Positions 15,400 through 39,597 of a stretch of DNA of 55,733 nucleotides are shown here, piece by piece (position 1 is the stretch's first letter; every line of letters begins with the position of its first letter). Below the pieces are notes generated by a model, which did not search any database, was not told where the DNA came from, and saw nothing but the letters and a program-made list of their open reading frames with translations. Origin of the DNA: Flavobacteriaceae bacterium (GTDB lineage Bacteria > Bacteroidota > Bacteroidia > Flavobacteriales > Flavobacteriaceae); NCBI GenBank assembly GCA_023954685.1, contig JAGSHF010000002.1:1-55733 (forward strand), read 5' to 3'. Both the position numbers and the translations under genes were made by a program.

Positions 15400-17454
15400 C
15401 TAATTTACCAAATAATGATCTGTACAATAGTCTAATAATATTTTTAAATCTGCTGTGATCATGACTTCGACGTCAGCATAAGGTTGATTGAGTGCTATAA
15501 GTTGTGTTGTTAAAGCGTCATGTTTAGCTTTTGTCAAGCGCTTTTGTATAATACTATTCATCAATACCTTTGAAAAATCTGAAATATGTTTTGATAGTGC
15601 GGCTAAAGGTTCAATTTTAGGGTTGCTTTTAATATTCGAAAAACGCTCATAATTTGTAGCCCATTTACTTAAATATACTAAAATTTTAGCTCTCTTCGTA
15701 TCGCTTGGCGCATATATGAAATTATCAATTAACGTATTGAAAGCAATAGCATCTTCAGCGTCAACAACACAAGCATCTGCAAATAGATTAAATGGGGAAA
15801 AAGATTTGTACTCGGTGCCTCCTTGGTTTCTAGAATATACTTTTAGGGGTTCGCATATTTTTGATAAATCTAATAATGCAGATATGTCTTGGTTGTCAGT
15901 CATTCCTCTTAATATGACATTTCTATTTTTTATATGTGTTAGACCTAATTCTTCTAATTTAAAATTAACATCCTTTAGTCTAAGTTGCATATTATTGAGA
16001 TTGCTAACCTCTTGTTGTGACCAAAAGCGTTCGGCAATAGCAGCAGTTCTCGGCCAAATTCTTGAATCTATAGTTGTAGGCGTAACGAGTTCACTCCACA
16101 TTGTTGCTTCACCACCTAATACAAGTGAATGCTCTTCATCGGTAAGTTTTACATTCCCAATAGGGTCAACGTTATAATGATGTTTTACCGATAGCATACG
16201 ATCAATGTAGTATCCATTTGAGAGAACAGTTTGATAGCCCGTTTTTGCAGCACTAATAAGTGATCCACCTTTTGGGAGGCCTTCATTTTCTCCTCGCCAT
16301 GAATGAATTACAGCCGTAGTAGGCATGGTTGGTGTCATGATTTCGTCCCATCCCATTAGTTTCTTCCCTAGTTTATTAAGGATTTTTTCTAATTTAATGT
16401 TGAAGTATGTTTGTAAATCATGATTAGTAGTTAAGCCATTTTCTTTTTTAAAATTTTGAATTTTTGTATTTGCATCCCAATGTTTACCTTCGTTTTCATC
16501 GCCGCCAATATGAAAATAGTCATCTGGAAATAACGGTGCTATTTCGGTAAATAAACCTTCAAGAAAATTATAAGTTTCAGGATTAGTTGGGTCTAAAGTG
16601 GGGTCAAAAACTCCAGCAAAACGTTCAATTTCATAGGTGTATTCTCCTTGGTGGCTGCCATATTCTGGATATGCCGTTAAAATGGCAGAAGCATGGCCAG
16701 GGACATCAATTTCTGGAATAACACGTATTCCTAGTTTTGATGCATAGGCAACAACATCTTTAATTTGGTTTTGGGTATAATATAGCCCGTCAGAAGCCAA
16801 TTCTTGTAATTTTGGATAGGTTTTAGACTCAATTCTAAAGCCTTGATCATCAGTTAAATGCCAATGAAAAACATTCATTTTAACAGATGCCATAGCATCT
16901 AAATTTCGTTTGATGACACCTATGGGTTGAAAATGTCTAGAGACATCAATCATAAGTCCACGCCATACAAAACGAGGTGCATCATTAATAGTTACACCCT
17001 TAAAATAATAGCTAGATGTATTGTGATTTATTAGTTGTAATAAGGTTTCTAAACCTCTAATAGCACCGACATCTGTGGCAGCATCAATTGTAATATGATC
17101 TGATTTAATTTGAAGTATATAAGATTCGTCGGTTTCAATATTTAATGCGGTTCGTTTTTGAAACGTAATGATAATAGTGCCCTTTTTATCTGTAATAGGA
17201 AATCCTTGATCAATAAAAACACCCGTGCGCTTAGTTAATCGTCTTATAAAATTAACCGCAGCCAATTGGATGCGATCTTGCCCTTGCCCATGTATAGATA
17301 CGGTAAGATTTTTATCTATAGTTAATTGATGATCATTAGCCTTTATTTCTTTTGGCCATGGCATCAAATTAAGTGTTGTTGTTAAATCATCCTGTGCAAA
17401 TGAATAAGTGTTAATTATGCAAAGTATAAAAAAGAATAATGCTGTTTTCTTCAT
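15400..17454 (-). CDS. GH20 beta-N-acetylhexosaminidase
   Basis: A 684-residue secreted glycosidase with a signal peptide (cleavage near SFA-QD, residue 20). The GH20 small N-terminal domain (about 25-150) is followed by the catalytic barrel (about 160-510): RGLMIDVSRHF, FHWHLTDDQGFR, PEIDVPGH, and the catalytic pair D319-E320 in HIGGDENEG. By the family's substrate-assisted mechanism it removes terminal beta-GlcNAc (or GalNAc) from oligosaccharides. The extra C-terminal 170 residues are helical. It is the last gene of the leftward SusC-SusD-NagB operon, so it most likely supplies GlcNAc in the periplasm. Confidence 0.92.
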   Translation of the reverse strand: MKKTALFFFILCIINTYSFAQDDLTTTLNLMPWPKEIKANDHQLTIDKNLTVSIHGQGQDRIQLAAVNFIRRLTKRTGVFIDQGFPITDKKGTIIITFQKRTALNIETDESYILQIKSDHITIDAATDVGAIRGLETLLQLINHNTSSYYFKGVTINDAPRFVWRGLMIDVSRHFQPIGVIKRNLDAMASVKMNVFHWHLTDDQGFRIESKTYPKLQELASDGLYYTQNQIKDVVAYASKLGIRVIPEIDVPGHASAILTAYPEYGSHQGEYTYEIERFAGVFDPTLDPTNPETYNFLEGLFTEIAPLFPDDYFHIGGDENEGKHWDANTKIQNFKKENGLTTNHDLQTYFNIKLEKILNKLGKKLMGWDEIMTPTMPTTAVIHSWRGENEGLPKGGSLISAAKTGYQTVLSNGYYIDRMLSVKHHYNVDPIGNVKLTDEEHSLVLGGEATMWSELVTPTTIDSRIWPRTAAIAERFWSQQEVSNLNNMQLRLKDVNFKLEELGLTHIKNRNVILRGMTDNQDISALLDLSKICEPLKVYSRNQGGTEYKSFSPFNLFADACVVDAEDAIAFNTLIDNFIYAPSDTKRAKILVYLSKWATNYERFSNIKSNPKIEPLAALSKHISDFSKVLMNSIIQKRLTKAKHDALTTQLIALNQPYADVEVMITADLKILLDYCTDHYLVN

Positions 17455-17480: not shown

Positions 17481-17936
17481 TTAGTTTAATCTAATATACT
17501 TTTCAATAATTTTTCTGTCTATTCCAGCAGCTTTTACTACTTCGGTTCCAGATTGTATTAATGTATCACCGATAATGGCTATTGTAAATGGGAATTCATG
17601 GTTTCTTATTGAATTTACAGTTGTAAATTTTAAAGTTTCAGTGTATTGATCCCCGTTTAGTGTGTATGTTCCTGAGCCACTATAATATTCTTCTGCGTTT
17701 GTTATATTTTGATTGAAAAATCCAAAATGCGACTCGTTTATTATTTTAATGAACTCAGTTTTTGTTAATTCTTTGACTTGGAGACTATCATTTTCAACCG
17801 TTTCGGCATAAATCATTTTCCAAGTACCTTCAATACTGCTTGAGGGTGTTGACGTAGTTTGATCTTTATTAGAAGTACAGTTTATTAAGCAAAGTGTCGC
17901 CAAGACAAGAAAAATATTTTTAGTAATGTTGAACAT
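17481..17936 (-). CDS. Small lipocalin-like lipoprotein
   Basis: A 151-residue lipoprotein. The ATG at 17936 gives a standard signal (MFNITKNIFLVLATLCLINC, lipobox Cys20); an upstream ATG at 17999 would overlap nagB and prepend a polar leader. The mature part begins with a Ser/Thr linker and then IEGTWKMIYAE, the G-x-W pattern of lipocalin-like small barrels, with further strands up to residue 150. No ligand can be named. It lies 16 bases after the NagB fusion and 26 before GH20, so it is part of the amino-sugar operon, possibly as a surface or periplasmic accessory protein. Confidence 0.65.
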   Translation of the reverse strand: MFNITKNIFLVLATLCLINCTSNKDQTTSTPSSSIEGTWKMIYAETVENDSLQVKELTKTEFIKIINESHFGFFNQNITNAEEYYSGSGTYTLNGDQYTETLKFTTVNSIRNHEFPFTIAIIGDTLIQSGTEVVKAAGIDRKIIEKYIRLN

Positions 17937-17952
17937 CTTAATAAAGGGACAA

Positions 17953-19884
17953 TTAAAAGTGATAGCGTTTAAAGGCCTCAATTGCTGCATAATTTGCAAG
18001 ACCTAAATCGTTGTATTTTTCAGCTGTTAATCTATTTCTATCTTCTACTCTCACCCAAAATTCCCTAGAATCTCCGCCTTGAAACATGACCCCGTCTTTT
18101 TGAGATTGATGATAAAATATGGCGTGACGTTTTTTGAGCACTTGATCTGGACTCATTGGTACAGCCATTTCTATTTCAGAAGATTCCCATTCGTGCCATG
18201 CGCCACGATATAACCAAACCCAGCAATCACTCATGAAAGCTTCAGTTTTTAATTGATCTAAGGATGCAAAAATAGCATCTAGGCATACTTTGTGTGTGCC
18301 GTGTGGATCGGCTAAGTCACCAGCGGCATAAATTTGATGTGGTTTAATATCAGCGATAAGATTTGAAACAATGCTAATATCGTCTTGAGATAGATTGTTT
18401 TTCTTTATGGTTCCTGTTTCGTAGAATGGTAAATCTAAAAAATGAACCTGCGTATCTGGAAGTCCTAAATAACGCGTTGCTGCATGTGATTCTCCACGTC
18501 TGATTAAACCTTTAAGCTGACGGGTTTCTATGGAATCAATTTCATTATCTGTTTTCTGATTTAAGAAATCAATCACGGCATTAGCTGTTCTTGAATTTGA
18601 GCCGCTTAGTGCTTTTGTTATTTCAGCAAACTTAAGTGCTTCTTCATCTGAAACAGCAATATTACCAGAAGTTTGATAAGCAATATGAACTTCATGACCT
18701 TGTTCTACTAATCTATCAAAAGTACCACCCATTGAGATGACATCATCATCGGGATGTGGACTAAAAATAATCGCACGCTTTTTATCTGGCATTGCGCGTT
18801 CAGGACGATTACTATCATCCGCATTAGGTTTGCCACCTGGCCATCCAGTAATGGTGTGCTGTAATTTATTAAACATTTTGATGTTTAAGTCATACGCAGT
18901 GCCTTCTTCCGTAAGTAAGCCGGACATACCATTATTATTATAATCTTTATCTGTAAGTTTTAAAATTGGTTTTTTAGTTAATTCACTTAACCAAACCACA
19001 GCTTTTAATTTTAATTGACTAGTCCAAATACATGAGGTTACCAACCAAGGTGTTTTAACACGAGTAAGTTCTGCTGATGCACCTTCATCCATAATGAATG
19101 TGGTGTTATTGTGTTCCTGTAAATACGTAGCTGGAACATGTGAACTTATGTTTCCTTCAATGGTTTCTTTAATAATTTCAGCTTTATTAAGACCCCAAGC
19201 TAATAATACAATGCGTTTAGCTGCTCTAACAGTACCAATACCCATCGTAATCGCTTTTCGTGGTACATTATCAATGCCTAAAAATGCTGGTGCGGCATCA
19301 ACTCTAGTAATGTGGTCTAAAGTAATACTTCTAGTGCCAGAATTAAAATGTGAGCCAGGCTCATTAAAGCCAATATGTCCAGTTCTACCAATGCCTAATA
19401 GTTGAAAATCCAAACCACCAAGCGCTTTAATCTTAAGCTCATAATCAATGCAATATTGATAGAGATCATCACTCGAAATTTTACCGTTTGGAATATGAAT
19501 ATGCTCTGATAGAATATCTATATGGTCAAAGAGATGCTCATGCATAAAATAGAAATAACTTTGAAGATTACTCTTATCCATTGGATAATATTCATCAAGG
19601 TTAAAGGTGTGTACATTTGCAAAACTTAAGCCTTCTTCTTTGTGCATTCGTACTAATTCTTCGTAAACTTTAATGGGAGAAGAACCAGTAGCTAAACCAA
19701 GAACACAAGGTTCGTTGCGCTTATTTTTTTCTTTAATAAGGGCTGCTATTTCTTGTGCTACAAGAATGGATGCCTCTAAAGAGGATTTGAAAATGACATT
19801 ATGAATTTTTTCGAAACGTGTTTCTTCAAAAGTTCCTGCCTTTTTATATGTTATGCTTTGATTATTGATTAAGTCAGCTGTCAT
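17953..19884 (-). CDS. nagB: NagB-PIG-L fusion: glucosamine-6-P deaminase with deacetylase-like domain
   Basis: A 643-residue two-domain protein. Residues about 30-285 are glucosamine-6-phosphate deaminase (NagB): sugar-phosphate loop GLATGSSP (63-70), catalytic Asp97 in NLDEYYP, and GRTGHIGFNEP with His170 and Glu175; the Asp that precedes this His in E. coli NagB is Thr169 here. A linker (about 290-368) leads to a PIG-L/LmbE-type deacetylase domain (about 370-570) with intact metal motifs HPDD (377-380) and HGTH (528-531). NagB alone turns GlcN-6-P into Fru-6-P and ammonia. PIG-L proteins remove N-acetyl groups from GlcNAc compounds, so the fusion could do both steps of GlcNAc-6-P breakdown. 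No nagA is seen nearby. Similar fusions exist in Bacteroidetes. It is cytoplasmic and lies downstream of susD after a hairpin. Confidence 0.9.
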   Translation of the reverse strand: MTADLINNQSITYKKAGTFEETRFEKIHNVIFKSSLEASILVAQEIAALIKEKNKRNEPCVLGLATGSSPIKVYEELVRMHKEEGLSFANVHTFNLDEYYPMDKSNLQSYFYFMHEHLFDHIDILSEHIHIPNGKISSDDLYQYCIDYELKIKALGGLDFQLLGIGRTGHIGFNEPGSHFNSGTRSITLDHITRVDAAPAFLGIDNVPRKAITMGIGTVRAAKRIVLLAWGLNKAEIIKETIEGNISSHVPATYLQEHNNTTFIMDEGASAELTRVKTPWLVTSCIWTSQLKLKAVVWLSELTKKPILKLTDKDYNNNGMSGLLTEEGTAYDLNIKMFNKLQHTITGWPGGKPNADDSNRPERAMPDKKRAIIFSPHPDDDVISMGGTFDRLVEQGHEVHIAYQTSGNIAVSDEEALKFAEITKALSGSNSRTANAVIDFLNQKTDNEIDSIETRQLKGLIRRGESHAATRYLGLPDTQVHFLDLPFYETGTIKKNNLSQDDISIVSNLIADIKPHQIYAAGDLADPHGTHKVCLDAIFASLDQLKTEAFMSDCWVWLYRGAWHEWESSEIEMAVPMSPDQVLKKRHAIFYHQSQKDGVMFQGGDSREFWVRVEDRNRLTAEKYNDLGLANYAAIEAFKRYHF

Positions 19885-19986: not shown

Positions 19987-21567
19987 TTAAAAGTTAGATC
20001 CACCAGTATCCCACCATAAACGTGTTGCACCATTGTCAGGACCGTTAAGTAATGAGATGGCATCTGCAACACCTGCAGCATTTGTTGATAATTCACTATC
20101 AACAAAAGGGATTCTTCTTATTTGAATGTCAGTGTCAATTACACCACCACTTTGATTGCTAACTACAGGAAAAATTTTAGGGTATCCTGTACGTCTAAAT
20201 TCACTCCAAGCTTCTTGCCCTTCAGGGAACATTGCAATCCATTTTTGAGTAATGATTTTTTCCAACTTCATTTCATTATTATCTCCCGCATTCCAAGCAA
20301 CAGTTGCTGTACTTAATGCTAAAGCATTGTTAGCAGCATTTACTGGATCAACATAATCTGAAGGTACAGAAGTATTATCCATAATGTATGCTGAAGCGCC
20401 ACTTGCTCCACGTTGATCGAAAGATGTTGTAATACCCATTTCGTAATTAGATTGAGCATCACCAGCACCAGCCCAACCTCTTAGAGCGGCTTCGGCCTTT
20501 AAAAAGTATACTTCAGAAGCTGTCATAAGTTGTACGGAAGAAGTTTTTACACCATCATTCATACCCGAAAAGCCAATATAATCTGCTTTTTGAGCAAGTT
20601 CATCAGCGTATCCAGCTTGTAATGGTAAGCCATTTCTTATCCCTTTGTAACTACCAGGATAATCTACAGCTTCATCAAAATAACTTTGCATTCTAGAATC
20701 ACCATAACCAGAAAGAATAGACTCCATAGAGGCATTCATTCTAATATCGCCCCATGAATTATCAATTACTGATAAAGGATGGCTAAGGACACTATTGACG
20801 AAGAAACTGTCTCCGTTGCTTGTCATTACACCTTGACTTAGTGCTTTTTCACCTTCTGCTTTAGCTTTTGCAGGATCCACTTTAGAAATTCTAATGGCAA
20901 GTCTTAATCGCAAAGAATTTGCCAAGGTTACCCAACTTTGAAGATTTCCGCCGTAAGATAAATCAAAAGCAGCAAAAGCGGGACTATCAATGTCAGACAT
21001 TAACCCTTCCACTGCGGTGTCCAAATCTGTAAAGAAGGCATTATAAGCTTCTTGTTGAGAGTCATAAACACCTGCCTTTTCAATAGAACCAAAATTAGTA
21101 TAAACAATTGGTCCAAAAACATCTGCCACACGGTGCATTGCTGCAACCTTTAATATTAAAGCGACACCGTTTAAAGTTGGTAATTCAGTTTCTGTTAAAT
21201 CTGTAATTGATTTAACATTATTCATGACATTATTATAAGGTACTGTCCAAATGAAATCATTCCAACCTGTTACCAAATTATAAGTGGTATTGTTTGCACC
21301 TGCCACAAATGGTCTTGGAGGTGTCATATATCCTGAATACGTATCTGCATTCAAATTTTGTTGCAGCTGGTATGACCATGCTGGAGTGTATTGATAGATA
21401 CTTTCAAAAATAGGTTTGTATTTAGACCCTACATGTTGAAAATCTACTTCTAGCTGCTCTTGCGTAATATCGCGCGGGTTATTGTTGTAATCTTCAAGAT
21501 TACTACAAGAACTACTGACTAATCCTACAATGGCTAAGCACGCTAATAATTTATTTGTATTTTTCAT
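19987..21567 (-). CDS. SusD/RagB-type nutrient-binding lipoprotein
   Basis: A 526-residue outer-membrane lipoprotein with signal peptide and lipobox Cys21 (GLVSSSC). The start of the mature chain (NLEDYNNNPRDI) and the helical TPR-like body with motifs such as VYFLKAEAALRGW and the late QKWIAMFPEGQEAWSEFRRTG segment match the SusD-like_2 family. These proteins cap the SusC channel and bind the oligosaccharide. It follows SusC with a 13-base gap. The neighbouring GH20 and NagB suggest an N-acetylglucosamine-containing ligand; that is inference from context. Confidence 0.92.
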   Translation of the reverse strand: MKNTNKLLACLAIVGLVSSSCSNLEDYNNNPRDITQEQLEVDFQHVGSKYKPIFESIYQYTPAWSYQLQQNLNADTYSGYMTPPRPFVAGANNTTYNLVTGWNDFIWTVPYNNVMNNVKSITDLTETELPTLNGVALILKVAAMHRVADVFGPIVYTNFGSIEKAGVYDSQQEAYNAFFTDLDTAVEGLMSDIDSPAFAAFDLSYGGNLQSWVTLANSLRLRLAIRISKVDPAKAKAEGEKALSQGVMTSNGDSFFVNSVLSHPLSVIDNSWGDIRMNASMESILSGYGDSRMQSYFDEAVDYPGSYKGIRNGLPLQAGYADELAQKADYIGFSGMNDGVKTSSVQLMTASEVYFLKAEAALRGWAGAGDAQSNYEMGITTSFDQRGASGASAYIMDNTSVPSDYVDPVNAANNALALSTATVAWNAGDNNEMKLEKIITQKWIAMFPEGQEAWSEFRRTGYPKIFPVVSNQSGGVIDTDIQIRRIPFVDSELSTNAAGVADAISLLNGPDNGATRLWWDTGGSNF

Positions 21568-21580
21568 GACTTAATCTTTT

Positions 21581-24500
21581 TTAGAATGTTAAATTTAAAT
21601 TTAGACCAACACTTCTTGTAGAAGGAAGACCTAAAACATCAACGCCTTGTAACGCGTTACCAGTACTTAAGGATACGTTTGGATCGTGTGGAGCATCTTT
21701 GTAAAAGAAGAATAAATTATTACCTACTAAAGAGGCTCTAATGTTATTAAAAAATGAATTTTCACCCATTGTAAAATTATAGCCTAAAGCAAATTCAGCC
21801 AATCTTACATTTGTAGCACTGTATACATATTCTCCTGTAAATCCATTTCTTCCACCAGTCTTTCCATAATAATCTTGCGCAGAAACTGTTGCTTGATTTC
21901 CATCTAAGTCTACAACTTCTACCGTACCGTTAGATGTTTTTCTTTGAGAATTGTTACTTAATCCTTCAACAATACCTTCAGTCATACTAACAGTTTCTCC
22001 TCCAAATTTTCCATCAATTAAGAAATCAAGTGAAAAACTCTTATAAGTAAATGAGTTATTCCAACCTAAAGAAAAATCCGGGTTAGCGTTTCCTACTTTG
22101 TCCAATGTTGGTACAGAATCATCATCTCTTGCTTGAATACTGCTAATAGTGCCATCAGGATTTAAATCCACAATTGGTCTTCCATTAGCATCTCTATCCA
22201 CTACTAAAGCGTAAATGTCTCCAAAAGAACCACCTTCAACTAAATAAGATCCAAAGGTATTAACCCCTGGTGCAGAAAGCGCAAAATTATCTAAAGAATT
22301 AACACCTTCAATATCGGTGTCAACTAACTTAATAACTTTATTTTTATTTGAAGCAAAGTTAATAGCAGTTCTCCATTTAAAGTTATCGTTTTCAATTGGT
22401 GTTCCAAAAATAGTAGCTTCAAATCCTTTATTAGAAATATCACCAGAGTTGATATTAGCTAAGGGACCTACACCAACCGTTGAAGAAACGGGTACAGTAA
22501 AAAACTGATCTGTAGTATTAGTTGAATAGTATCCTATTTCTATACCATAACGGTTATTGGCGAAGCGCCATTCTGTTCCAATTTCAAAAGATTTTTGTCT
22601 TTCCGGCTTCGGCGTCGTTCCAGGGAACGGATTGATAGGTTCTGCAGAACTCACACCCCCACCACCAAAAATGATAGAGCGGTTACGTGCAATTTGATCA
22701 GCGCCAAAAGCGTTACCTACTTCCGCATAAGATGCGCGCACTTTTGCAAAAGATACATTAGTTCCTAAATCGAACATTTCAGATAAAATTCCTGTAAGTC
22801 CAAAAGAAGGATAAAAGAATGAATTGTCTGATGCTGGTAATGTTGAAGACCAATCGTTTCTTGCCGTCACATCAAGAAAAAGTTTCTCTTGGTAACCTAA
22901 AGTTGCACTTGTAAAAATAGAACTGGTTCTTGTTTCATATGAGTTTTGAGTAAAACTTACTTGTGGATTTCCTTCAAAATTTTGGAAAGAGAAAACATTT
23001 GCATATTGTAAGCCTCCATTTGTACCAGAATCTGCAGTAAAACGTTCAGTTGTGTTTCTTGTAGTACTCATACCAACAACAGCAGATAATGATAAATCAT
23101 CACTAATTTTTGGCGTAATGGTAGCAATTAAATCTCCATAAAGCTGAGTGAAATCATTATTGTTTACAATATATCTACCGTTTGCAGGAGCTAATGTAAG
23201 CTCAGTGGTAGCATAAATTTTTCTTTCAAAATTCAATAAAGATTGATCGTAAGTCCCTCTTGATTGTACTGTTAACCAATCGTTGAATGTATACGCAAGA
23301 TTAACATTGGCAAGAAGTTTTTTATTAGAGTCCTCACTAGCATTTCTGTTTAAAATCCAATAAGGATTTTGCTCGATGTCTGATGTACCTCTAAACCAAC
23401 GTTGTGCCATAATATTTCTATTAGGATCATATTCTTCAAAGGTTTTGTAATCAGACAATTTTTCGGTGTCAGATTGAAAAGCATAAGCACCAACTAAAGG
23501 GTTAAAGTATAATCCTGAAACTGGTCTGTTATTTATTTTTTGCGTAGACGCATTAAAACTTGCGCTAACACTTAATTTATCGTCAAATAATTGAGCAGTT
23601 TCTCTAATGTTAAAAGTGTGCTGTGTTAAATCATTTGTAGGCAAAATCCCTGAAGCATTGGTGTTGCTATAAGAAAAGTAAGTTTGCGCATTTTTTGTGC
23701 CTCCAGAAATATTTAATGAGTTAATATTAGTCACCCCATTATCGTAAAAATCATCTACGTTACTTTGAGTCTCATCGTTAAAGTCCATCATATAAGCTGC
23801 ACTTTCAACGGTTAGATTTGTTGAAAAGTTAACAGCGAATCCGCCTTCACGTCCTTTTTTTGTTGTAATTAAAATTACACCATTTAATCCAGCACTACCA
23901 TATAATGCCGAAGCGGAAGCTCCTTTTAACACGGTCATACTTTCAATATTATCTGGATTAATCATAGACATGGCATCACCACCATCTCTGTTTCCACCAT
24001 TAATATCTCCAAAAGTATCTGAAGGTTGTCCAGCCGTTGGGTTAAGTAAAGGAATACCATCCACAACATAGAGTGGCTGGTTGTTACCAATAGAAGCATT
24101 TCCCCTTAAAGTCACTTTTACAGATCCTCCAACACCAGATGCACTTCTTGTCACTACAAGTCCAGATACTTTACCTGACAAACTGTTGATTGGGTTTGTT
24201 TGTTTTACTTTGTTCAGCTCTTTTGCATTAATATCTTGAGCCGCATAAGTTAACGAGCTTCTAGATTTTTTAATACCTAATGCTGTAACTACCACTGCAG
24301 ATAATTGTTCTGCATCTTCTTCTAATTGAACGTCAATTACATTTGAGTTATCAACTGTAATTGTAACTGTAGTCATTCCTAAGTAGGAAAAACTTAATTG
24401 GTCACCTTGAGAAGCCGTAATGGAATAATTTCCATTGAAATCTGTTTGCGTGCCACTTGTAGTACCTACTACTAAAACATTAACCCCAGGAAGAGGCATA

Positions 24501-24613
24501 TTGTCCGCTTTAGAAGTCACTGTTCCTGTTATTTCTCTCTCTTGTGCAAATGTGGATTGCAGTGAAGAAAAAAGAAGCATAACAAAGAGTGTCAATCTTA
24601 AATTTTGTTTCAT
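21581..24613 (-). CDS. SusC/RagA-type TonB-linked outer-membrane transporter
   Basis: A 1010-residue outer-membrane protein. After a signal peptide (cleavage near TFA-QE, residue 24) comes a carboxypeptidase-regulatory-like domain (about 27-105, ITGTVTSKADNMPLPGVNV), a TonB-box-like segment (VVVTALGIKK), the plug domain (about 120-255, with LYVVDGIPL and LKGASASALYGSAG) and a large barrel ending in the aromatic LNLNLTF. It imports oligosaccharide with its SusD partner, powered by TonB. It is the first gene of the leftward operon; the upstream region is shared with the LytS-type regulator gene and contains TAGTCT direct repeats. Confidence 0.94.
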   Translation of the reverse strand: MKQNLRLTLFVMLLFSSLQSTFAQEREITGTVTSKADNMPLPGVNVLVVGTTSGTQTDFNGNYSITASQGDQLSFSYLGMTTVTITVDNSNVIDVQLEEDAEQLSAVVVTALGIKKSRSSLTYAAQDINAKELNKVKQTNPINSLSGKVSGLVVTRSASGVGGSVKVTLRGNASIGNNQPLYVVDGIPLLNPTAGQPSDTFGDINGGNRDGGDAMSMINPDNIESMTVLKGASASALYGSAGLNGVILITTKKGREGGFAVNFSTNLTVESAAYMMDFNDETQSNVDDFYDNGVTNINSLNISGGTKNAQTYFSYSNTNASGILPTNDLTQHTFNIRETAQLFDDKLSVSASFNASTQKINNRPVSGLYFNPLVGAYAFQSDTEKLSDYKTFEEYDPNRNIMAQRWFRGTSDIEQNPYWILNRNASEDSNKKLLANVNLAYTFNDWLTVQSRGTYDQSLLNFERKIYATTELTLAPANGRYIVNNNDFTQLYGDLIATITPKISDDLSLSAVVGMSTTRNTTERFTADSGTNGGLQYANVFSFQNFEGNPQVSFTQNSYETRTSSIFTSATLGYQEKLFLDVTARNDWSSTLPASDNSFFYPSFGLTGILSEMFDLGTNVSFAKVRASYAEVGNAFGADQIARNRSIIFGGGGVSSAEPINPFPGTTPKPERQKSFEIGTEWRFANNRYGIEIGYYSTNTTDQFFTVPVSSTVGVGPLANINSGDISNKGFEATIFGTPIENDNFKWRTAINFASNKNKVIKLVDTDIEGVNSLDNFALSAPGVNTFGSYLVEGGSFGDIYALVVDRDANGRPIVDLNPDGTISSIQARDDDSVPTLDKVGNANPDFSLGWNNSFTYKSFSLDFLIDGKFGGETVSMTEGIVEGLSNNSQRKTSNGTVEVVDLDGNQATVSAQDYYGKTGGRNGFTGEYVYSATNVRLAEFALGYNFTMGENSFFNNIRASLVGNNLFFFYKDAPHDPNVSLSTGNALQGVDVLGLPSTRSVGLNLNLTF

Positions 24614-24792: not shown

Positions 24793-25884
24793 TTGTTAGT
24801 CTTTATAAGACTTTTTCTTAATAAAACCCATAGAATTATTTCAATATTTAATAATAATATTAAGCTCACAATTCCTCTAAAATACCACATTGTATTTTGG
24901 TTAGGCTACTTTACATTTAATGTCATTAGATGGGGCAGTTATTTTGATGATTATGGGTATTCAATTAAATCTAATATTGTAGAGTTTTCAATTCATATCA
25001 TTATTGTTTATGGTAATATATTTTATTTAATTCCCAAACTCATATTAAGAAAACGCTATAAAATGTATGTCGCCTCGGTTATTTTAATCATGGCTTTAGT
25101 ATATATTGTAAGGACAGCCTTAAATTACCATTTTGTTACAACAGAAATTTATCCGGAAGCATTTTATCCTGGAAAATTCTTTAAATTCAACTATGTTCTT
25201 GAGGTCATTATTGGAGAAATCTATGTTATTACTTTTGTAACTTCAATTAAACTTATGGTAGATTGGTTTATTGAGAAAAAGCGAAATGAAAATTTGGCTA
25301 AATTACAACTCAGTACCGAGCTTAAGTTTTTAAGATCTCAAATACAGCCTCATTTCTTTTTTAATACATTAAACAATTTATACGCATTGACGTTAACGAA
25401 ATCTGATAACGCCCCGCAATTGGTAATAAAACTCTCGGAATTGATGCAATATGTTTTGTATGAGATTAACGAATCTAAAGCGAATTTGTTAGATGAAATA
25501 AATCATATTAATAACTACATAGATATTGAAAGATTGCGGTTTGCCGATAGGGTTGAATCTGAATTGAATATTACGGGTAATATTGAAGATGTAAAAGTTC
25601 CGCCTTTATTATTTCTTTCTTTTATTGAGAACTGCTTTAAACATGGGCTCAAAGAAAATGATAAGTTAAAAATTGACATGAATTTTCAACTTATAAATAA
25701 GGATTATTTAGTATTTCGATTATCTAATAATTTTAACCCAGATGTAAATCAAGATAATAATCAAGGTATTGGTATTACTAATTCCAAAAGACGCCTTAAA
25801 TTGTTATTTTTTAATGATTTTGAATTAAAAACCACCATAAAAGAAACAACGTATAATCTATTTTTAAAAATCCCCATAAGATGA
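24793..25884 (+). CDS. LytS/YehU-type sensor histidine kinase
   Basis: Up to 363 residues. Several hydrophobic segments (about 30-50, 65-82, 92-110 and 133-158) form a membrane part without an obvious periplasmic sensor domain, followed by a His_kinase domain (PF06580): LRSQIQPHFFFNTLNNL with the phosphorylated His at about 187, and a HATPase region (PPLLFLSFIENCFKHGL and NNQGIGITNSKRRL). The start is uncertain: the first in-frame candidate is TTG at 24793, there is no ATG before codon 91 (25063), and the family-like sequence begins near LTIPLKYH. It overlaps the response-regulator gene by four bases. It probably senses the state of amino-sugar uptake and controls the divergent operons. Confidence 0.85.
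   Translation: MLVFIRLFLNKTHRIISIFNNNIKLTIPLKYHIVFWLGYFTFNVIRWGSYFDDYGYSIKSNIVEFSIHIIIVYGNIFYLIPKLILRKRYKMYVASVILIMALVYIVRTALNYHFVTTEIYPEAFYPGKFFKFNYVLEVIIGEIYVITFVTSIKLMVDWFIEKKRNENLAKLQLSTELKFLRSQIQPHFFFNTLNNLYALTLTKSDNAPQLVIKLSELMQYVLYEINESKANLLDEINHINNYIDIERLRFADRVESELNITGNIEDVKVPPLLFLSFIENCFKHGLKENDKLKIDMNFQLINKDYLVFRLSNNFNPDVNQDNNQGIGITNSKRRLKLLFFNDFELKTTIKETTYNLFLKIPIR
24798..24812. promoter_or_regulatory. Palindrome at the kinase gene start
   Basis: AGTCTT-TAT-AAGACT is a perfect inverted repeat that shares AGTCT with the repeats near susC. It lies just after the only plausible (TTG) start codon of the kinase and is followed by TTTTTCTT, so it could be an operator, a small attenuator, or chance. 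Confidence 0.3.
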
Positions 25885-26603
25885 AGATTAAATGTGTTAT
25901 AATAGACGACGAGCCATTAGCAATTCAAGTGATAGAAGATCACTTGAAGAACTTTGATAATATAGATGTTTTCGGGACATTTATTAATCCTTTGAAAGCC
26001 TATGGTATTTTGGAACAAGAAAAAATTGATGTTATATTTCTAGATATCAATATGCCCCAAATGAGTGGATTTACTTTTATTGAAAACCTAAATTATAAGC
26101 CTCTTATTGTGATCACAACTGCTTATAGAGAGTATGCTGTGAAAAGTTATGAAATGAACGTGCTAGATTATTTAGTAAAGCCAATCCCTTTCAATAGGTT
26201 TTTAAAGACAATAAACAAAGTATACCAGTACATCTATAGTAATATTTCTAGTGCAGAACAAAGCTTGAATCAAGAACCTCATATTTTTTTAAAGGTAAAT
26301 AAGAAATTACTTAAGGTGAACTTAAATGACATCCTTTATATTGAAAGCCTTAAAGATTACATAAAAGTAATAACGACCATTGGAGATCTTGTGGTACATA
26401 AATCCCTATCGGCCATATCTGAAGAATTACCACAATCTAATTTTATTCGTATTCACAGATCGTATACCATATCAATCAATAAAATTGTGGCCATAGAAGG
26501 TAATACGGTGGAAATAACGGGGAGAAAAATACCAATTGGACGAAATTATTTAAAACAAACCAAAGAACGCATTCTTAACATCAGTGACGAAAACGACAAC
26601 TAA
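25881..26603 (+). CDS. LytTR-family response regulator
   Basis: A 240-residue response regulator. The receiver domain (1-about 120) has the acidic pocket IIDDEP (Asp9-Asp10), phospho-acceptor Asp55 in VIFLDINMP, and Lys in YLVKPIPF. The C-terminal LytTR DNA-binding domain (about 140-238) shows DILYIESLKDYIKVIT, the FIRIHRSYTISINKI core and the closing IPIGRNYLK. It overlaps the kinase gene by four bases (ATGA) and precedes the symporter by five, so it is cotranscribed. It most likely binds direct repeats near susC and/or its own promoter. Confidence 0.93.
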   Translation: MKIKCVIIDDEPLAIQVIEDHLKNFDNIDVFGTFINPLKAYGILEQEKIDVIFLDINMPQMSGFTFIENLNYKPLIVITTAYREYAVKSYEMNVLDYLVKPIPFNRFLKTINKVYQYIYSNISSAEQSLNQEPHIFLKVNKKLLKVNLNDILYIESLKDYIKVITTIGDLVVHKSLSAISEELPQSNFIRIHRSYTISINKIVAIEGNTVEITGRKIPIGRNYLKQTKERILNISDENDN

Positions 26604-26608
26604 CTATT

Positions 26609-28423
26609 ATGATAGAATTATCTAATCTTGACTATACCCTAATAATTACATTTTTTTCAATAACTCTTTTCATTGGAATTTGGGTTTCAAAAAAATCAGG
26701 AAAAAATTCTGGAGAATTTTTCTTATCAGGAAGAAATATGCCTTGGTGGCTTTTAGGCCTTTCAATGGTGGCCACAACGTTTTCTACAGACACACCAAAT
26801 TTGGTCACAGATATTGTGAGAACCAATGGTGTATCAGGAAACTGGGTTTGGTGGGCTTTTTTAATAACGGGGATGCTTACCGTTTTTGTATATGCAAAGC
26901 TTTGGCGTAAATCTAATGTAAAAACGGATTTGGAGTTTTATGAATTACGTTATGGGGGTAAACCAGCTAGTTTTTTAAGAAAATTCAGAGCGGTGTATTT
27001 GGGTGTTATTTTTAATGTGATTACCATGTCTGCGGTAACATTGGCCGCTATTAAAATAGGTGGTATCATGCTAGGTCTCGAACCGTGGCAAACCGTTGTG
27101 AGTGCGGGATTAATCACTGTAATTTTTAGTGCCTTGGGAGGTTTTAAAGGCGTTGTATATACAGATTTTGTTTTATTCTTTGTCGCTATGGGTGGTGCGA
27201 TAGGGGCTGCATATTATTTGGTGAATTTACCAGAAGTAGGAGGTATTGAGGCTGTAATGAATAATGAAAATGTTATTGATAAACTTTCTATATTACCAGA
27301 TTTTAGCAATACTGAAGCTGTAATAACATTAATGATTATTCCTTTGGCGGTTCAGTGGTGGAGCTCTTGGTATCCTGGTGCAGAACCAGGTGGTGGTGGT
27401 TATATCGCACAAAGAATGTTGGCGGCAAAAGATGAAAATCATGCCATTGGAGCAACGTTTTTCTTTAATATCATGCATTATGCTATTCGTCCTTGGCCAT
27501 GGATTCTAGTGGCTTTAGCATCACTTGTTGTATTCCCAGATTTGGCGAGTATTCAAGAAGCATTTCCTAATATTGCCGAAGATAAATTGGGGCATGATTT
27601 GGCGTATTCAGCCATGTTAACCAAACTGCCATCTGGTTTATTGGGCTTAGTTCTAGCCTCATTAATTGCGGCTTATATGTCCACAATTTCAACCCAACTT
27701 AACTGGGGGTCTTCATATATTGTTTTCGATTTTTACAAACAACAAATTAATCCGCAAGCATCTGAAAAACGTTTGGTTGCTGTAGGACGAATTTCAACCG
27801 TTGTATTAATGGTATTGAGTGCTATTTTAGCTTTGGCCATGCAAAATGCTATGGAGGTTTTTGAAATGATGTTGCTCTTTGGAGCAGGTACAGGTTTAAT
27901 CTTTATTTTAAGATGGTTTTGGTGGCGTATCAATTCATGGACAGAAATTTCAGCTATGTTTGCCTCTGGAATTTTATCGATATCCATAAAGGCAACACCT
28001 CTTGGCGATTATCTTTTTGCTGCCGATACTGGTGTATTTCCAAGTTGGTATGAAATTCCCTTTGTTGTTGTGGTGACCACAACCATTTGGCTTATCGCTA
28101 CATTTATTACGCAGCCAGAATCAAAAGACGTATTAAACAGGTTTTATAAAAAAACACAACCAGGAGGTCCAGGTTGGTCTAAAGTGATTTCAGAAGCCAA
28201 AGCTGATGGGATAGAACTTGTAAAAACCAATGAAGGCTGGAGTGTGCCTTCAGGAATTGCTGCTATGTTATTAGGTTGTGCGTTAATTTACAGCTGTTTG
28301 TTTGCCACAGGGTTTTACATTTATGGCGATTATAATAATGCATTTATATTAACAGGAATAGCAGTAGTTTCAGGATATTTCTTGGTTAAAATGTGGAAAA
28401 AAGTAAGAGCCACTATTTTGTAG
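26609..28423 (+). CDS. Sodium:solute symporter (SSS family)
   Basis: A 604-residue inner-membrane transporter with about 13-14 hydrophobic segments. Family marks include the N-terminal SGRNMPWWLLGLSMVATTFS segment (SSS helix 1, sodium site) and TWIATF-type late helices. Some SSS members carry sugars, so in this locus the likely cargo is GlcNAc or a related amino sugar released by GH20; glucose, sialic acid or a sugar acid cannot be excluded. It follows the LytTR gene with a five-base gap, and only two bases separate its stop from the next gene, making one operon. Confidence 0.9.
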   Translation: MIELSNLDYTLIITFFSITLFIGIWVSKKSGKNSGEFFLSGRNMPWWLLGLSMVATTFSTDTPNLVTDIVRTNGVSGNWVWWAFLITGMLTVFVYAKLWRKSNVKTDLEFYELRYGGKPASFLRKFRAVYLGVIFNVITMSAVTLAAIKIGGIMLGLEPWQTVVSAGLITVIFSALGGFKGVVYTDFVLFFVAMGGAIGAAYYLVNLPEVGGIEAVMNNENVIDKLSILPDFSNTEAVITLMIIPLAVQWWSSWYPGAEPGGGGYIAQRMLAAKDENHAIGATFFFNIMHYAIRPWPWILVALASLVVFPDLASIQEAFPNIAEDKLGHDLAYSAMLTKLPSGLLGLVLASLIAAYMSTISTQLNWGSSYIVFDFYKQQINPQASEKRLVAVGRISTVVLMVLSAILALAMQNAMEVFEMMLLFGAGTGLIFILRWFWWRINSWTEISAMFASGILSISIKATPLGDYLFAADTGVFPSWYEIPFVVVVTTTIWLIATFITQPESKDVLNRFYKKTQPGGPGWSKVISEAKADGIELVKTNEGWSVPSGIAAMLLGCALIYSCLFATGFYIYGDYNNAFILTGIAVVSGYFLVKMWKKVRATIL

Positions 28424-28425
28424 TT

Positions 28426-29508
28426 ATGGCACAACGCATAGAATCGGTTGATATATTAAGAGGCATTACTATTGTGGCTATGATTTTGGTGAATAACCCA
28501 GGGACCTGGGGTGAAGTATACCAACCATTATTACATGCCGATTGGCACGGTCTAACCCCTACAGATTTAATATTTCCGTTTTTTCTATTCATTGTAGGGA
28601 TTTCTATTTTTTTCGCTTATAAGAATAAACCAAACAATATAGAAACCTATAAAAAAATCTCGATTAGAAGTTTAAAGTTAATCGGACTTGGTTTATTTCT
28701 AAATATATTCCTACCCTATGTCCCTTTCCTTAAGGATCTGGAATCGCTGCGTATTCCCGGAGTTTTACAACGTATTGGAGTTGTATTCTTTTTTGCATCG
28801 ATCATATATTTAAATGTAAGCAGGAAAGTTGTTTTTAGAATCGCCATATTTATTTTAATAGGGTATTGGTTGTTTATGGGGTATGTTCCGTTCCCAGATG
28901 GGACTTTACCAACTTTTGACAGGGCACCAAATAATTGGGCGAATTATATAGACTTAAATTTGTTGGGAGAGCATATGTGGAAAGCAGATTATGACCCAGA
29001 AGGTTTATTTAGCACCCTTCCAGCTATTGCAACGAGCTTGTTTGGAATATTGATAGGAGGAACATTGTCTAGTATGAAACACTTAAACACACTTTTTTTA
29101 TGGGCGATTGGGTTTTTAGTAACAGGTTATGTTATGCATTTGGTTTTTCCAATCAACAAGGCCATATGGAGTAGTAGTTTTGTATTAACGACTTGCGGCT
29201 GGGGAACGCTAATTTTAGGATTGATATATTATATTACTGATGTCAAACACATAAAATTTGGTTCAGTTTTTAAATATGCTGGAATGAACGCCATTACAAT
29301 TTTTTTCTTATCAGGATTTGTGGCAAAATTGTTTTACCTTACTAAGGTAGGGAATACGAATATACATGCTTGGCTCTATGATAATTTATTTCGTTATTCA
29401 TTTATTGACGATAAGTTATCATCATTATTATATGCGTTAATGGTAGTGGCGTTTTATCTTATTTTGAGTTATTTGATGTACAGGAAGAAAATTTTTATAA
29501 AAGTTTAA
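28426..29508 (+). CDS. nagX: NagX/HGSNAT-like membrane acyltransferase
   Basis: A 360-residue membrane protein with about ten hydrophobic segments. The ATG at 28426, two bases after the symporter stop, gives the family start RIESVDILRGITIVAMILVN; an in-frame start inside the symporter gene is less likely. The DILRG motif, the His in the HADWHGLTPTDLIFPFFLF segment and the FLFIVG helix match COG4299/DUF5009, which includes human heparan-alpha-glucosaminide N-acetyltransferase and bacterial NagX, a recurrent gene of GlcNAc catabolic clusters. It may transfer acetyl groups across the inner membrane to an amino sugar; the reaction has not been shown here and the symbol is by family only. Confidence 0.82.
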   Translation: MAQRIESVDILRGITIVAMILVNNPGTWGEVYQPLLHADWHGLTPTDLIFPFFLFIVGISIFFAYKNKPNNIETYKKISIRSLKLIGLGLFLNIFLPYVPFLKDLESLRIPGVLQRIGVVFFFASIIYLNVSRKVVFRIAIFILIGYWLFMGYVPFPDGTLPTFDRAPNNWANYIDLNLLGEHMWKADYDPEGLFSTLPAIATSLFGILIGGTLSSMKHLNTLFLWAIGFLVTGYVMHLVFPINKAIWSSSFVLTTCGWGTLILGLIYYITDVKHIKFGSVFKYAGMNAITIFFLSGFVAKLFYLTKVGNTNIHAWLYDNLFRYSFIDDKLSSLLYALMVVAFYLILSYLMYRKKIFIKV

Positions 29509-29512
29509 GCAT

Positions 29513-30235
29513 ATGATTTCAAATGCACAAATACAATTTTTCAAAGAAGAAGGATATTTGGTTGTTAAGGATTTGTTGTCACCGCTAGACGTGTCTTATT
29601 ATAGTGATTTGTATGATGCCTTTCTTGATAATAGTATAAATGCTTCAAAATATAGATCAGATTTATCAGGTGGAACTAATGATACTAAAGAAAAAATCAC
29701 TCAAATTATGGTGCCTAATAAATTGGTGCCTGAGTTAATAGTGAAACCATATCACCAAAAGGCAGAACAAATTGCTAAACAGCTCTTGGGTGATGATATG
29801 GCTTTTGATTTTGATATGCTCATTAACAAAGCGCCAAATACCAACACCATAACACCTTGGCATCAAGATGCTGCATATTGGATAGATATGCCAGATAAAA
29901 GAGCAACAAGTTGTTGGATGGCTATAGATAAGGCATTTAAGGATAATGGCTGTATGTGGTATACACCAAAATCACACTTAGAACCTTTGATGGCCCATGA
30001 ACAAAAAGGTCATAAAGGCGCATTGCAATGCCATGGCTCTGAGTTTGATGCTATATGTGTTGAACTAGAACCAGGATCTTGTGTATTTCATGATGGGCAT
30101 TTATTGCATTATAGTAGAGGTAATGCTACAAACCGACAACGACGCGCGTTTATAACTAATTTTAGACCTCAAGAAATGATAGCTTTAGAGCGGTTAAAAG
30201 GATATGATCATACTGGTGAACGAAAAGTGAAATAA
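29513..30235 (+). CDS. Phytanoyl-CoA dioxygenase (PhyH) family oxygenase
   Basis: A 240-residue Fe(II)/2-oxoglutarate oxygenase-like protein. The metal-binding HxD is in PWHQDAAYWID (about 117-119), with the distal His in CVFHDGHLLHYSRGNA and the 2-oxoglutarate Arg in NRQRRAFI. All three metal ligands and the Arg seem intact, so it is probably active, but PhyH enzymes act on very varied substrates. It overlaps the Gfo/Idh gene by one base and follows nagX by four bases, which suggests a shared step on a sugar-derived compound; this is inference. Confidence 0.85.
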   Translation: MISNAQIQFFKEEGYLVVKDLLSPLDVSYYSDLYDAFLDNSINASKYRSDLSGGTNDTKEKITQIMVPNKLVPELIVKPYHQKAEQIAKQLLGDDMAFDFDMLINKAPNTNTITPWHQDAAYWIDMPDKRATSCWMAIDKAFKDNGCMWYTPKSHLEPLMAHEQKGHKGALQCHGSEFDAICVELEPGSCVFHDGHLLHYSRGNATNRQRRAFITNFRPQEMIALERLKGYDHTGERKVK

Positions 30236-31215
30236 TGCAAGAAACTACAATTCGTTGGGGTGTTATTGGATGTGGTAAGGTGACCGAAGTTAAGAGTGTG
30301 CCTGCATACAAAAACATTGATGGTTTTGAAATACCCGTGGTGATGAGGAGAAATCTAAGCCTCGCAAAGGACTTTGCAAGACGCCATAATATTGAAGATT
30401 ACACCAATGATTCTGATGAACTCATTAACCACCCTAATGTTGATGCCATTTACATTGCAACACCGCCAGATAGTCATCATTATTATGCCATGAAAGTTGC
30501 TAAGGCTGGAAAAATATGCTGTATTGAAAAACCTATGGCACGTAGTTATCAAGAGTGCAAGGAAATAGTAAACGCTTTTAAAAGCAAAGAATTGCCCTTG
30601 TTTGTAGCGTATTACCGAAGGTCTTTGCCACGATTTGAAAAGCTAAAAGTTTTAATTGATTCCGAAGAAATTGGCACTATAAGACATGTTAATTGGAGTT
30701 TTCATAAGCCTAGCAATACTATAGACTTGAGCGGTCAATACAATTGGAGAACTGATATTAAAGTGGCTTATGGTGGATATTTTGATGACTTAGCAAGTCA
30801 TGGTATCGATTTGTTTACACATTTCTTTGGAACGATTAAAGAAGCGTCAGGCATATGTACAAATCAGCAAGGGTTATATACTGCCATGGATACTGTGTCG
30901 GGGAGTTGGTTGCACACCTCTGGAATTTCGGGTTCTGGATATTGGAATTTTGGGGCTTCGGAAAGAAAAGATGACGTTGAACTTATTGGAAATAAAGGTA
31001 AAATCACGTTTTCTATTTTTGATGAACAGCCTATAAGAATAAGTGATAATAATCAACATAGAGAAATTGTAATAAACCATCCAAAACACATTCAATATTA
31101 TCATGTCTTAAATATGAAATCGGCTCTTTTTAATAAAAAGGAACACCCATCTACAGGAAAGACTGCAGCGCACACTAGCTGGGTAATGGACAAAATACTT
31201 GGTAAAATAAAATAA
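30235..31215 (+). CDS. Gfo/Idh/MocA-family oxidoreductase
   Basis: A 326-residue NAD(P)-dependent sugar oxidoreductase. The N-terminal Rossmann fold has GVIGCGKVTEVKSVPAY (about 7-24), the ATPPDSH loop (about 79-85) and the catalytic-lysine motif CCIEKPMA (about 97-104). The C-terminal half carries the mixed-sheet domain with GGYFDDLASHGIDLF. Members oxidise or reduce sugar rings or inositols, or cut glycosides by a redox mechanism; the substrate is unknown. It is the last gene of the operon begun by the kinase and is closed by a strong terminator. Confidence 0.92.
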   Translation: MQETTIRWGVIGCGKVTEVKSVPAYKNIDGFEIPVVMRRNLSLAKDFARRHNIEDYTNDSDELINHPNVDAIYIATPPDSHHYYAMKVAKAGKICCIEKPMARSYQECKEIVNAFKSKELPLFVAYYRRSLPRFEKLKVLIDSEEIGTIRHVNWSFHKPSNTIDLSGQYNWRTDIKVAYGGYFDDLASHGIDLFTHFFGTIKEASGICTNQQGLYTAMDTVSGSWLHTSGISGSGYWNFGASERKDDVELIGNKGKITFSIFDEQPIRISDNNQHREIVINHPKHIQYYHVLNMKSALFNKKEHPSTGKTAAHTSWVMDKILGKIK

Positions 31216-37749: not shown

Positions 37750-39597
37750 TTACTCTACAGTAACTGATTTTGCTAAGTTTCGAGGCTGATCTACATTTTT
37801 TTCTAGCATTACCGCAATATGGTAGGACAGTAATTGTAAAGGAATGGTAGTCACTAATGGCGATAAAGATTCTAAAGTTTCAGGAACTTCAATGGTATGA
37901 TCGGCTAAATTAGTTACGCTTGTATCTCCTTTAGTTACGACGGCGATAATTTTACCTTGCCTTGCTTTAATTTCTTCAATGTTACTTACAACTTTTTCAT
38001 AATGCCCTTTTTTGGGAGCAATTACAATAATAGGCATGTTTTCATCGATAAGTGCAATAGGGCCATGTTTCATTTCGGCAGCAGGATATCCCTCAGCATG
38101 AATATAGGAAATCTCTTTGAGTTTAAGAGCACCTTCTAAGGCTACTGGAAAATTAAAACCACGTCCTAAGTACAAACAGTTTTTAGCATCCTTGTAAATA
38201 CTGGCGATATGCTTTATATGCTCGTCATGTTTCAAAGCCTCTAATACTTTTTCCGGTATGAGTGCTAACTCATTTAAATGCAAACGGTAATCTTCATTTG
38301 AAATGGTACCTTTAGCTTTAGCCAACTTTAATGCAATGAGCGTTAAAACTGTAATTTGAGTCGTAAAAGCTTTCGTAGATGCAACTCCAATTTCTGGACC
38401 AGCATGCGTGTATGCTCCTGCATGTGTTTCTCTAGCAATTGTACTTCCCACAACGTTACAAACCCCAAAAACAAAGGCGCCTTTAGATTTTGCTAACTTT
38501 ATTGCCGCAAGCGTATCTGCAGTTTCACCAGATTGAGAAATGGCAATAACCACATCATTTTCATGGATTACGGGGTTTCTATATCTAAATTCTGAAGCGT
38601 ATTCTACTTCAACAGGAATTCTCGCTAAATCTTCAAAAATATATTCAGCAACTAAACCTGCATGCCATGAAGTACCGCATGCTACTACAATAATACGGCT
38701 GGCATTTTGGAATTTTTCAATATTGTCATCAATTCCAGCCATTTTAATAATGCCTTTATTGGCGAGTAAACGTCCTCGATATGTGTCTTTTATGGCATGA
38801 GGTTGCTCATATATTTCTTTGAGCATAAAATGATCATAACCTCCTTTTTCAATTTCTTCTAAGTTCATTTGAAGTTCTTGAACATAGGGGTTAACTAATG
38901 AATCATCTTGTATTTTTCGTATTTTAATATCTTTATGCCTGCGAATAACAGCAATTTCTTCATCTTCTAAATAGATGGCATTTTTAGTGTATTCAATAAA
39001 TGGTGAAGCATCACTAGCGATAAAAAATTCATCCTCGCCAACACCAATGGCTAAAGGACTTCCTAATTTGGCAACAACAATTTCATTAGGCTTGTTTTTA
39101 TCAAATACCGCAATTGCATAAGCACCAATAACTTGGTTAAGTGCTATTTGTACAGCCTTACCTAGTTTGATATTTTCATTTTTCTTAATGTCTTCAATAA
39201 GGTTAATTAAGACTTCTGTATCTGTATCTGATTTAAAAGAGTAACCACGTTGAATGAGTTCTTTTTTAAGCGCTTCGTAATTTTCAATGATGCCATTATG
39301 AATGATTACTAAATCACCTGAATTAGAATAATGTGGATGTGAATTAATGTCATTAGGGATACCGTGTGTTGCCCAACGTGTATGTCCAATACCTAAACTT
39401 CCTGTGGTGCTAATTTCGGATGCTATCCTTTTTTCTAAATCATCAACCTTACCTTTTGTTTTTGATAATTTTATATCAGCGCCATCGTAAAGAGCAATTC
39501 CAGCACTATCATAGCCTCTATATTCAAGACGTTTAAGGCCTTTAATTATAATTGGGTAAGCTTCTCTATGTCCAATATATCCAACAATTCCACACAT
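37750..39597 (-). CDS. glmS: Glutamine-fructose-6-phosphate transaminase (isomerising)
   Basis: A 615-residue enzyme making glucosamine-6-phosphate from fructose-6-phosphate and glutamine, the first step to UDP-GlcNAc and the cell wall. The N-terminal glutaminase has nucleophile Cys2 (MCGIVGYIG) and GIGHTRWATHG; two SIS domains follow (SQSGETADT, ASTKAFTTQ), and the C-terminal LAKSVTVE is the conserved tail. It lies six bases after a DUF4270 gene, in one operon. It runs opposite in direction to the NagB reaction of the amino-sugar locus earlier in the window. Confidence 0.97.
   Translation of the reverse strand: MCGIVGYIGHREAYPIIIKGLKRLEYRGYDSAGIALYDGADIKLSKTKGKVDDLEKRIASEISTTGSLGIGHTRWATHGIPNDINSHPHYSNSGDLVIIHNGIIENYEALKKELIQRGYSFKSDTDTEVLINLIEDIKKNENIKLGKAVQIALNQVIGAYAIAVFDKNKPNEIVVAKLGSPLAIGVGEDEFFIASDASPFIEYTKNAIYLEDEEIAVIRRHKDIKIRKIQDDSLVNPYVQELQMNLEEIEKGGYDHFMLKEIYEQPHAIKDTYRGRLLANKGIIKMAGIDDNIEKFQNASRIIVVACGTSWHAGLVAEYIFEDLARIPVEVEYASEFRYRNPVIHENDVVIAISQSGETADTLAAIKLAKSKGAFVFGVCNVVGSTIARETHAGAYTHAGPEIGVASTKAFTTQITVLTLIALKLAKAKGTISNEDYRLHLNELALIPEKVLEALKHDEHIKHIASIYKDAKNCLYLGRGFNFPVALEGALKLKEISYIHAEGYPAAEMKHGPIALIDENMPIIVIAPKKGHYEKVVSNIEEIKARQGKIIAVVTKGDTSVTNLADHTIEVPETLESLSPLVTTIPLQLLSYHIAVMLEKNVDQPRNLAKSVTVE

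Follow-up and report, generated by a model that had tools for sequence, protein, structure and literature searches.

How does a bacterium that is equipped to degrade a GlcNAc-type polysaccharide feed the released sugar into its metabolism when the respective locus has no gene for NagA, the deacetylase that is treated as the step opening GlcNAc to central metabolism? The question is raised by the window analyzed here, a stretch of 55,733 nucleotides from a Flavobacteriaceae MAG (80% complete, 242 contigs). The genes for SusC, SusD, a fusion protein, a lipoprotein and GH20, together with a divergent arm, make up a GlcNAc-type polysaccharide locus that contains neither nagA nor a recognized sugar kinase:

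15400..17454, (-) strand: GH20 beta-hexosaminidase, 684 aa
17481..17936, (-) strand: small predicted lipoprotein with the lipobox LINC, between the fusion and GH20
17953..19884, (-) strand: NagB-PIG-L fusion, 643 aa, NF002557/PRK02122 family, signal peptide not evident
19987..21567, (-) strand: SusD-like lipoprotein
21581..24613, (-) strand: SusC-like TonB-dependent transporter
24793..25884, (+) strand: sensor histidine kinase (His_kinase, PF06580)
25881..26603, (+) strand: LytTR response regulator
26609..28423, (+) strand: SSF sodium:solute symporter, candidate amino-sugar importer
28393..29508, (+) strand: HGSNAT/NagX-like membrane acetyltransferase (scores 172.6 bits against NagX, under the cut-off of 480)
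29513..30235, (+) strand: PhyH family dioxygenase
30235..31215, (+) strand: Gfo/Idh/MocA oxidoreductase

The small lipoprotein gene, which is easily overlooked because it is short, is listed as an open reading frame at 17481-17999 that starts from TTG and has an internal ATG near 17936, upstream of the lipobox; a gene of this kind occupies the same place in more than 20 loci of relatives. The PhyH and Gfo/Idh genes (29513-31215, (+) strand) close the divergent amino-sugar arm, and their role in GlcNAc use is not obvious. About 18 kb from the fusion, at 37750-39597 on the (-) strand, lies glmS, the product of which makes GlcN-6-P, that is, works in the opposite direction.

The ORF of the fusion is intact, begins with ATG and encodes three recognizable parts:

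19099..19761, (-) strand: NagB (Glucosamine_iso) domain, aa 42-262, Pfam E 6e-21
18787..19062, (-) strand: conserved, family-specific middle segment between the two domains, aa 275-366, with the motif GWPGGKP
18271..18768, (-) strand: PIG-L/LmbE-like domain, aa 373-538, Pfam E 1.5e-17

The protein scores above the gathering score of the PIG-L Pfam profile (64.7 bits; 28.2 required), the cut-off of the NagB equivalog TIGR00502 (260.1 bits; 236.9) and that of NF002557/PRK02122 (1057 bits over aa 8-642; 384). Given this match to a curated family, the architecture is neither new nor unusual but known and common in Bacteroidetes. The family is annotated as 'glucosamine-6-phosphate deaminase-like protein' and has the same two domains as the fusion, without any structural difference. 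A literature search (LmbE with NagB, and PRK02122) yielded no paper that assigns NF002557 a deacetylase role.

In the N-terminal half, D97, H170, E175 and K234 align with D72, H143, E148 and K208 of Escherichia coli NagB (1dea/1cd5), residues that are thus kept in the fusion. In contrast, E. coli D141 is replaced by T168, and R172, which we take to be a phosphate ligand, by P199; the fusion further differs from the E. coli enzyme in being joined to PIG-L. The D141 position is occupied by Asn in Bacillus subtilis NagB and by Asp in Borrelia, so this residue is not strictly required, and T168 alone is no argument against activity. The AlphaFold2 model of the fusion (pLDDT 90.9, pTM 0.84) has as its best Foldseek match the B. 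subtilis NagB structure 2bkv (TM 0.96 by target length), whereas its C-terminal half matches the diacetylchitobiose deacetylase 8bgo.

The C-terminal half carries the motifs HPDD (377-380) and HGTH (528-531), with H377, D380 and H531 as the predicted metal ligands and D379 as the predicted general base. This site conforms to the rule for the LmbE-like/PIG-L superfamily, an HXDD plus H metal motif with an Asp as the general base; the substrates of the known LmbE-like enzymes are varied GlcNAc conjugates (PMC4101496). The C-terminal half also has conserved basic residues, such as R462, R607 and R612, which might bind a phosphate. The solved structures that are nearest to this half, by both sequence and fold, are those of diacetylchitobiose deacetylases (Dac; PDB 8bgo, 3we7, 3wl4), which share with it the PIG-L/LmbE-like fold, the HPDD motif and a sugar-catabolic role. 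Unlike the fusion, Dac is a stand-alone protein, and the likeness, at about 20% identity, is one of fold and weak sequence similarity only. Archaeal Dac works on unphosphorylated sugars, and we know of no characterized PIG-L enzyme that acts on GlcNAc-6-P.

The original prediction for this locus described an intact NagB domain followed by an intact PIG-L metal site, in an operon with SusCD and GH20 but without nagA or a GlcNAc kinase, and noted similar fusions in other Bacteroidetes with a second activity that is not settled. The metal site and the operon, with SusC, SusD and GH20 on the strand of the fusion, are as described, neither a nagA nor a kinase is recognized in the locus, the family was indeed already curated, and our search turned up no activity ascribed to the PIG-L half. 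The description of the NagB half holds for D97, H170 and E175 but not for the positions of D141 and R172.

We propose that the fusion is probably a bifunctional cytoplasmic enzyme, the PIG-L half of which deacetylates GlcNAc-6-P to feed the NagB half. Under this scenario, the PIG-L/LmbE-like C-terminal domain would be a metal-dependent deacetylase non-homologous to NagA, and the GlcN-6-P that it makes would pass to the N-terminal NagB domain, to be converted to Fru-6-P and ammonia. The GlcNAc-6-P could come from GH20 release, import and phosphorylation by a BadF-family GlcNAc kinase, or else from MurQ in the recycling of N-acetylmuramic acid. What the genomes show directly is the domain pair with its residues, the gene neighborhoods and the absence of nagA; the reaction, its substrate, the sequence of the steps and a direct hand-over between the domains are inferred from these. 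The PIG-L half would share with NagA (TIGR00221) the reaction and the position in the pathway, whereas the fold and metal site of NagA, a member of the amidohydrolase superfamily, are unrelated to it; unlike NagA, the fusion joins the deacetylase to the next enzyme of the pathway. TIGR00221 is absent among the families matched by the fusion protein, so the comparison with NagA is one of analogous function only. With slightly less assurance, we favor a wider reading, in which the PIG-L-fold GlcNAc-6-P deacetylase fused to NagB would be a major one in much of the class Bacteroidia; in which it would take the place of NagA by non-orthologous replacement, in chitin/GlcNAc catabolism as well as in MurNAc recycling; and in which a Bacteroidales-like lineage would keep a dead NagB domain beside an active deacetylase. 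What is new here is the comparative case for such an enzyme standing in for NagA in much of Bacteroidia.

The original prediction also suggested a search of the genome for nagA and a GlcNAc kinase. In the 80%-complete MAG, all 40 nagA candidates were scored, and none reaches E 1e-10; a ROK-type GlcNAc kinase was not found either, and, instead, a BadF-type kinase (C146) is encoded along with murQ, on other contigs. The genome encodes a second PIG-L protein (C101), which is unlikely to be a cytoplasmic deacetylase, being a long, multidomain protein with a signal-peptide-like start. Because this genome is only 80% complete, we surveyed 396 Bacteroidia genomes, 82 of which encode the fusion above the cut-off. 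The class-wide nagA search scored four candidates per genome and was repeated for the nagA-negative set with all candidates scored; full-length NagA matches stand well apart from the background. Among the 82 fusion genomes, 34 lack a NagA homologue even with all candidates scored (threshold E<=1e-10). These genomes are spread over 11 families and include the single-contig assemblies G271, G305 and G339. In 8 of the 11 families, there are nagA-positive fusion genomes as well, which implies that the nagA-negative pattern arose repeatedly. We further examined 50 Flavobacteriaceae, most of them named, that encode a close orthologue of the fusion; nagA is missing in 34 of these, for example, in Mangrovimonas xylaniphaga, Tamlana haliotis, Algibacter onchidii, Flavobacterium flevense and F. 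saccharophilum. The literature yielded nothing decisive on whether the named species that lack nagA grow on GlcNAc.

The nagA-negative fusion genomes retain the genes for the supply of the precursor. A homologue of the BadF-type sugar kinase (with the C146 protein as the query) is present in 33 of the 34 and MurQ in 32, so GlcNAc-6-P should still be made in these bacteria. The kinase shows only a remote relationship to NagK_SO3507, a named GlcNAc kinase (E 3e-8 for the copy in genome G014 and 5e-6 for that in G024), and its substrate is accordingly a prediction. In G014 and G191, two of the nagA-negative genomes, the kinase, MurQ, a small protein and the fusion are encoded on one strand, and the reading frames of the kinase, MurQ and the small protein overlap; this is an apparent MurNAc recycling operon. 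This small protein (L115:7979-8572 (-) and L116:7982-8584 (-)), about 200 aa in length, has no Pfam/NCBIfam match. MurQ adjoins the fusion also in G186, G313, G279, G322 and G339, and, given that the product of MurQ is GlcNAc-6-P, this arrangement speaks for a phosphorylated substrate rather than free GlcNAc. In 15 loci of marine Flavobacteriaceae, the operon consists of SusC, SusD, the fusion, GH20 and the kinase, and all 11 genomes with this arrangement that were tested are nagA-negative.

Comparison of 99 fusions indicates which half is kept. None of the 99 proteins departs from H377, D379, D380, D381, D523, D526 and H531 in the PIG-L half. The NagB triad, in contrast, is preserved in 87 of them, and the other 12 have lost it, with Tyr in place of D97 and Asn, Thr or Ile in place of H170 (loci L113, L120, L070, L068, L079, L081, L084, L088, L089, L094, L097 and L107). 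A stand-alone NagB scoring above 400 bits is encoded in 11 of the 12 genomes with a dead NagB half, compared to none of the 70 with an intact one (Fisher p about 1e-12, a figure that overstates the evidence because the species are related). The mean conservation of the NagB half is 0.66 in the 12 dead-NagB fusions vs 0.72 in the others, and that of the PIG-L half is 0.77 vs 0.71; the 12 are likewise more conserved in the middle segment and at the C-terminus. In this Bacteroidales-like subset, the NagB half would thus be catalytically dead, with a separate NagB taking over and the PIG-L activity alone being kept.

The reduced genomes bear on the same issue. The symbiont G024 (490 kb) encodes a 558-aa PIG-L protein with a dead NagB half (L141:3288-4961 (-)), a stand-alone NagB with intact motifs (L142:2939-3694 (-)) and the BadF kinase (L229:1400-2281 (+)), and shows no NagA match, with four candidates scored, and no MurQ. 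In G179 and G202, NagB is present, and the fusion, NagA and the kinase are all missing. What stays constant is the predicted PIG-L activity, accompanied by the predicted GlcNAc kinase. The exception is G241 (chromosome of 1,114,206 bp), in which a dead-NagB fusion is kept (L148:13746-15734 (-)) and no stand-alone NagB, MurQ or match to the kinase query was found; the BcrAD_BadFG match in this genome is only partial and weak (E 5.5e-4).

These observations also bear on other roles that the PIG-L half might have. A rather unlikely one is that it deacetylates free GlcNAc, or chitobiose, in the manner of Dac, after which the kinase would phosphorylate GlcN and the NagB half would act last; NagA would be dispensable in this case, given that the sugar would lose its acetyl group ahead of the kinase step. 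Pointing in this direction are Dac, whose structures are the closest solved ones in both sequence and fold, and the location of the fusion beside GH20 in many loci; the BadF family, moreover, includes glucosamine kinases. However, the GlcNAc-6-P made by MurQ, which is present in 32 of the 34 nagA-negative genomes and adjoins the fusion in seven survey genomes, would then be stranded, and a fusion of two consecutive steps would be more natural than one of the first and third steps with a separate kinase acting in between. It is less probable still that the substrate of the PIG-L half is some other GlcNAc conjugate, such as a thiol precursor, a lipid or a cell-wall fragment, with an unrecognized GlcNAc-6-P deacetylase encoded elsewhere. 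Such a role would account for the fusion being carried by 48 of the about 53 nagA-positive genomes and for its persistence in G241, which lacks a recognizable GlcNAc catabolic set, and it agrees with the varied GlcNAc conjugates taken by known LmbE-like enzymes (PMC4101496). It would require, however, an additional deacetylase in 11 families; none of the 34 genomes encodes a nagA-like protein at E 1e-10, and the gene neighborhoods indicate GlcNAc/MurNAc catabolism. That only the NagB half matters, with the PIG-L half inert or structural, is highly improbable: the NagB half does closely resemble solved NagB enzymes, but it is the PIG-L catalytic residues that are invariant, the NagB triad having disappeared from 12 fusions and from the G024 protein, and we reject this option on conservation.

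The replacement of NagA by the fusion is the reading best supported by the loss of nagA with retention of the kinase and murQ, the operons and the invariant PIG-L site. The conversion of GlcNAc-6-P to Fru-6-P on one chain in place of NagA, as originally predicted, is partly supported, considerably more strongly than when it was proposed, yet it is unproven. The nagA-negative genomes, the operons and the conserved site speak for it; against it stand the retention of NagA in 48 of the 82 fusion genomes, the case of G241, the missing equivalent of R172 and the status of Dac as the nearest solved structures, which makes free GlcNAc a possible substrate given that Dac acts on unphosphorylated sugars. 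Replacement of NagA thus fits a large subset of the family rather than the whole of it. In the fusion genomes that keep NagA and in G241, the enzyme may have a second substrate or take part in salvage of amino sugars into cell-wall synthesis. In G291, and also in G099, two tandem nagA genes lie directly beside a dead-NagB fusion (L231:10277-14733 (-)), which hints at different substrates for NagA and the PIG-L enzyme in these bacteria.

If the proposed activity is real, nagA-based pathway reconstructions miss GlcNAc and MurNAc use that is present in Bacteroidetes, a family annotated merely as 'deaminase-like' acquires a further activity that can be tested, and the LmbE-like superfamily gains a phosphosugar substrate. 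The dead-NagB subset would represent a natural separation of the two predicted activities.

The locus in the window resembles the chitin utilization locus of Flavobacterium johnsoniae, which comprises SusC/D-type transporters, GH20, a two-component system and an annotated nagB, Fjoh_4557 (PMC5127042), which may correspond to the fusion. The authors of that study did not achieve expression of Fjoh_4557, its deletion had no effect, and a separate NagA is predicted to be Fjoh_3974 (PMC5127042). NagX, in turn, has been proposed to acetylate periplasmic glucosamine, and nagA is reported to be involved in four of the five NagX bacteria, with Echinicola vietnamensis as the subject of the fifth panel (Fig. 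3E) (PMC9007349). Acetylation in the periplasm would call for an internal deacetylase, which fits the argument but is no proof of it, and the protein in the window is far below the NagX cut-off.

We also observed a second, divergent fusion of NagB with a PIG-L-like part, of about 790 aa, that Pfam does not recognize (L143:5607-7976 (-) and L144:5117-7498 (-)). In this protein, GPHHDD and DTHYK replace HPDD and HGTH, and similar frames are present in five genomes of family f16.
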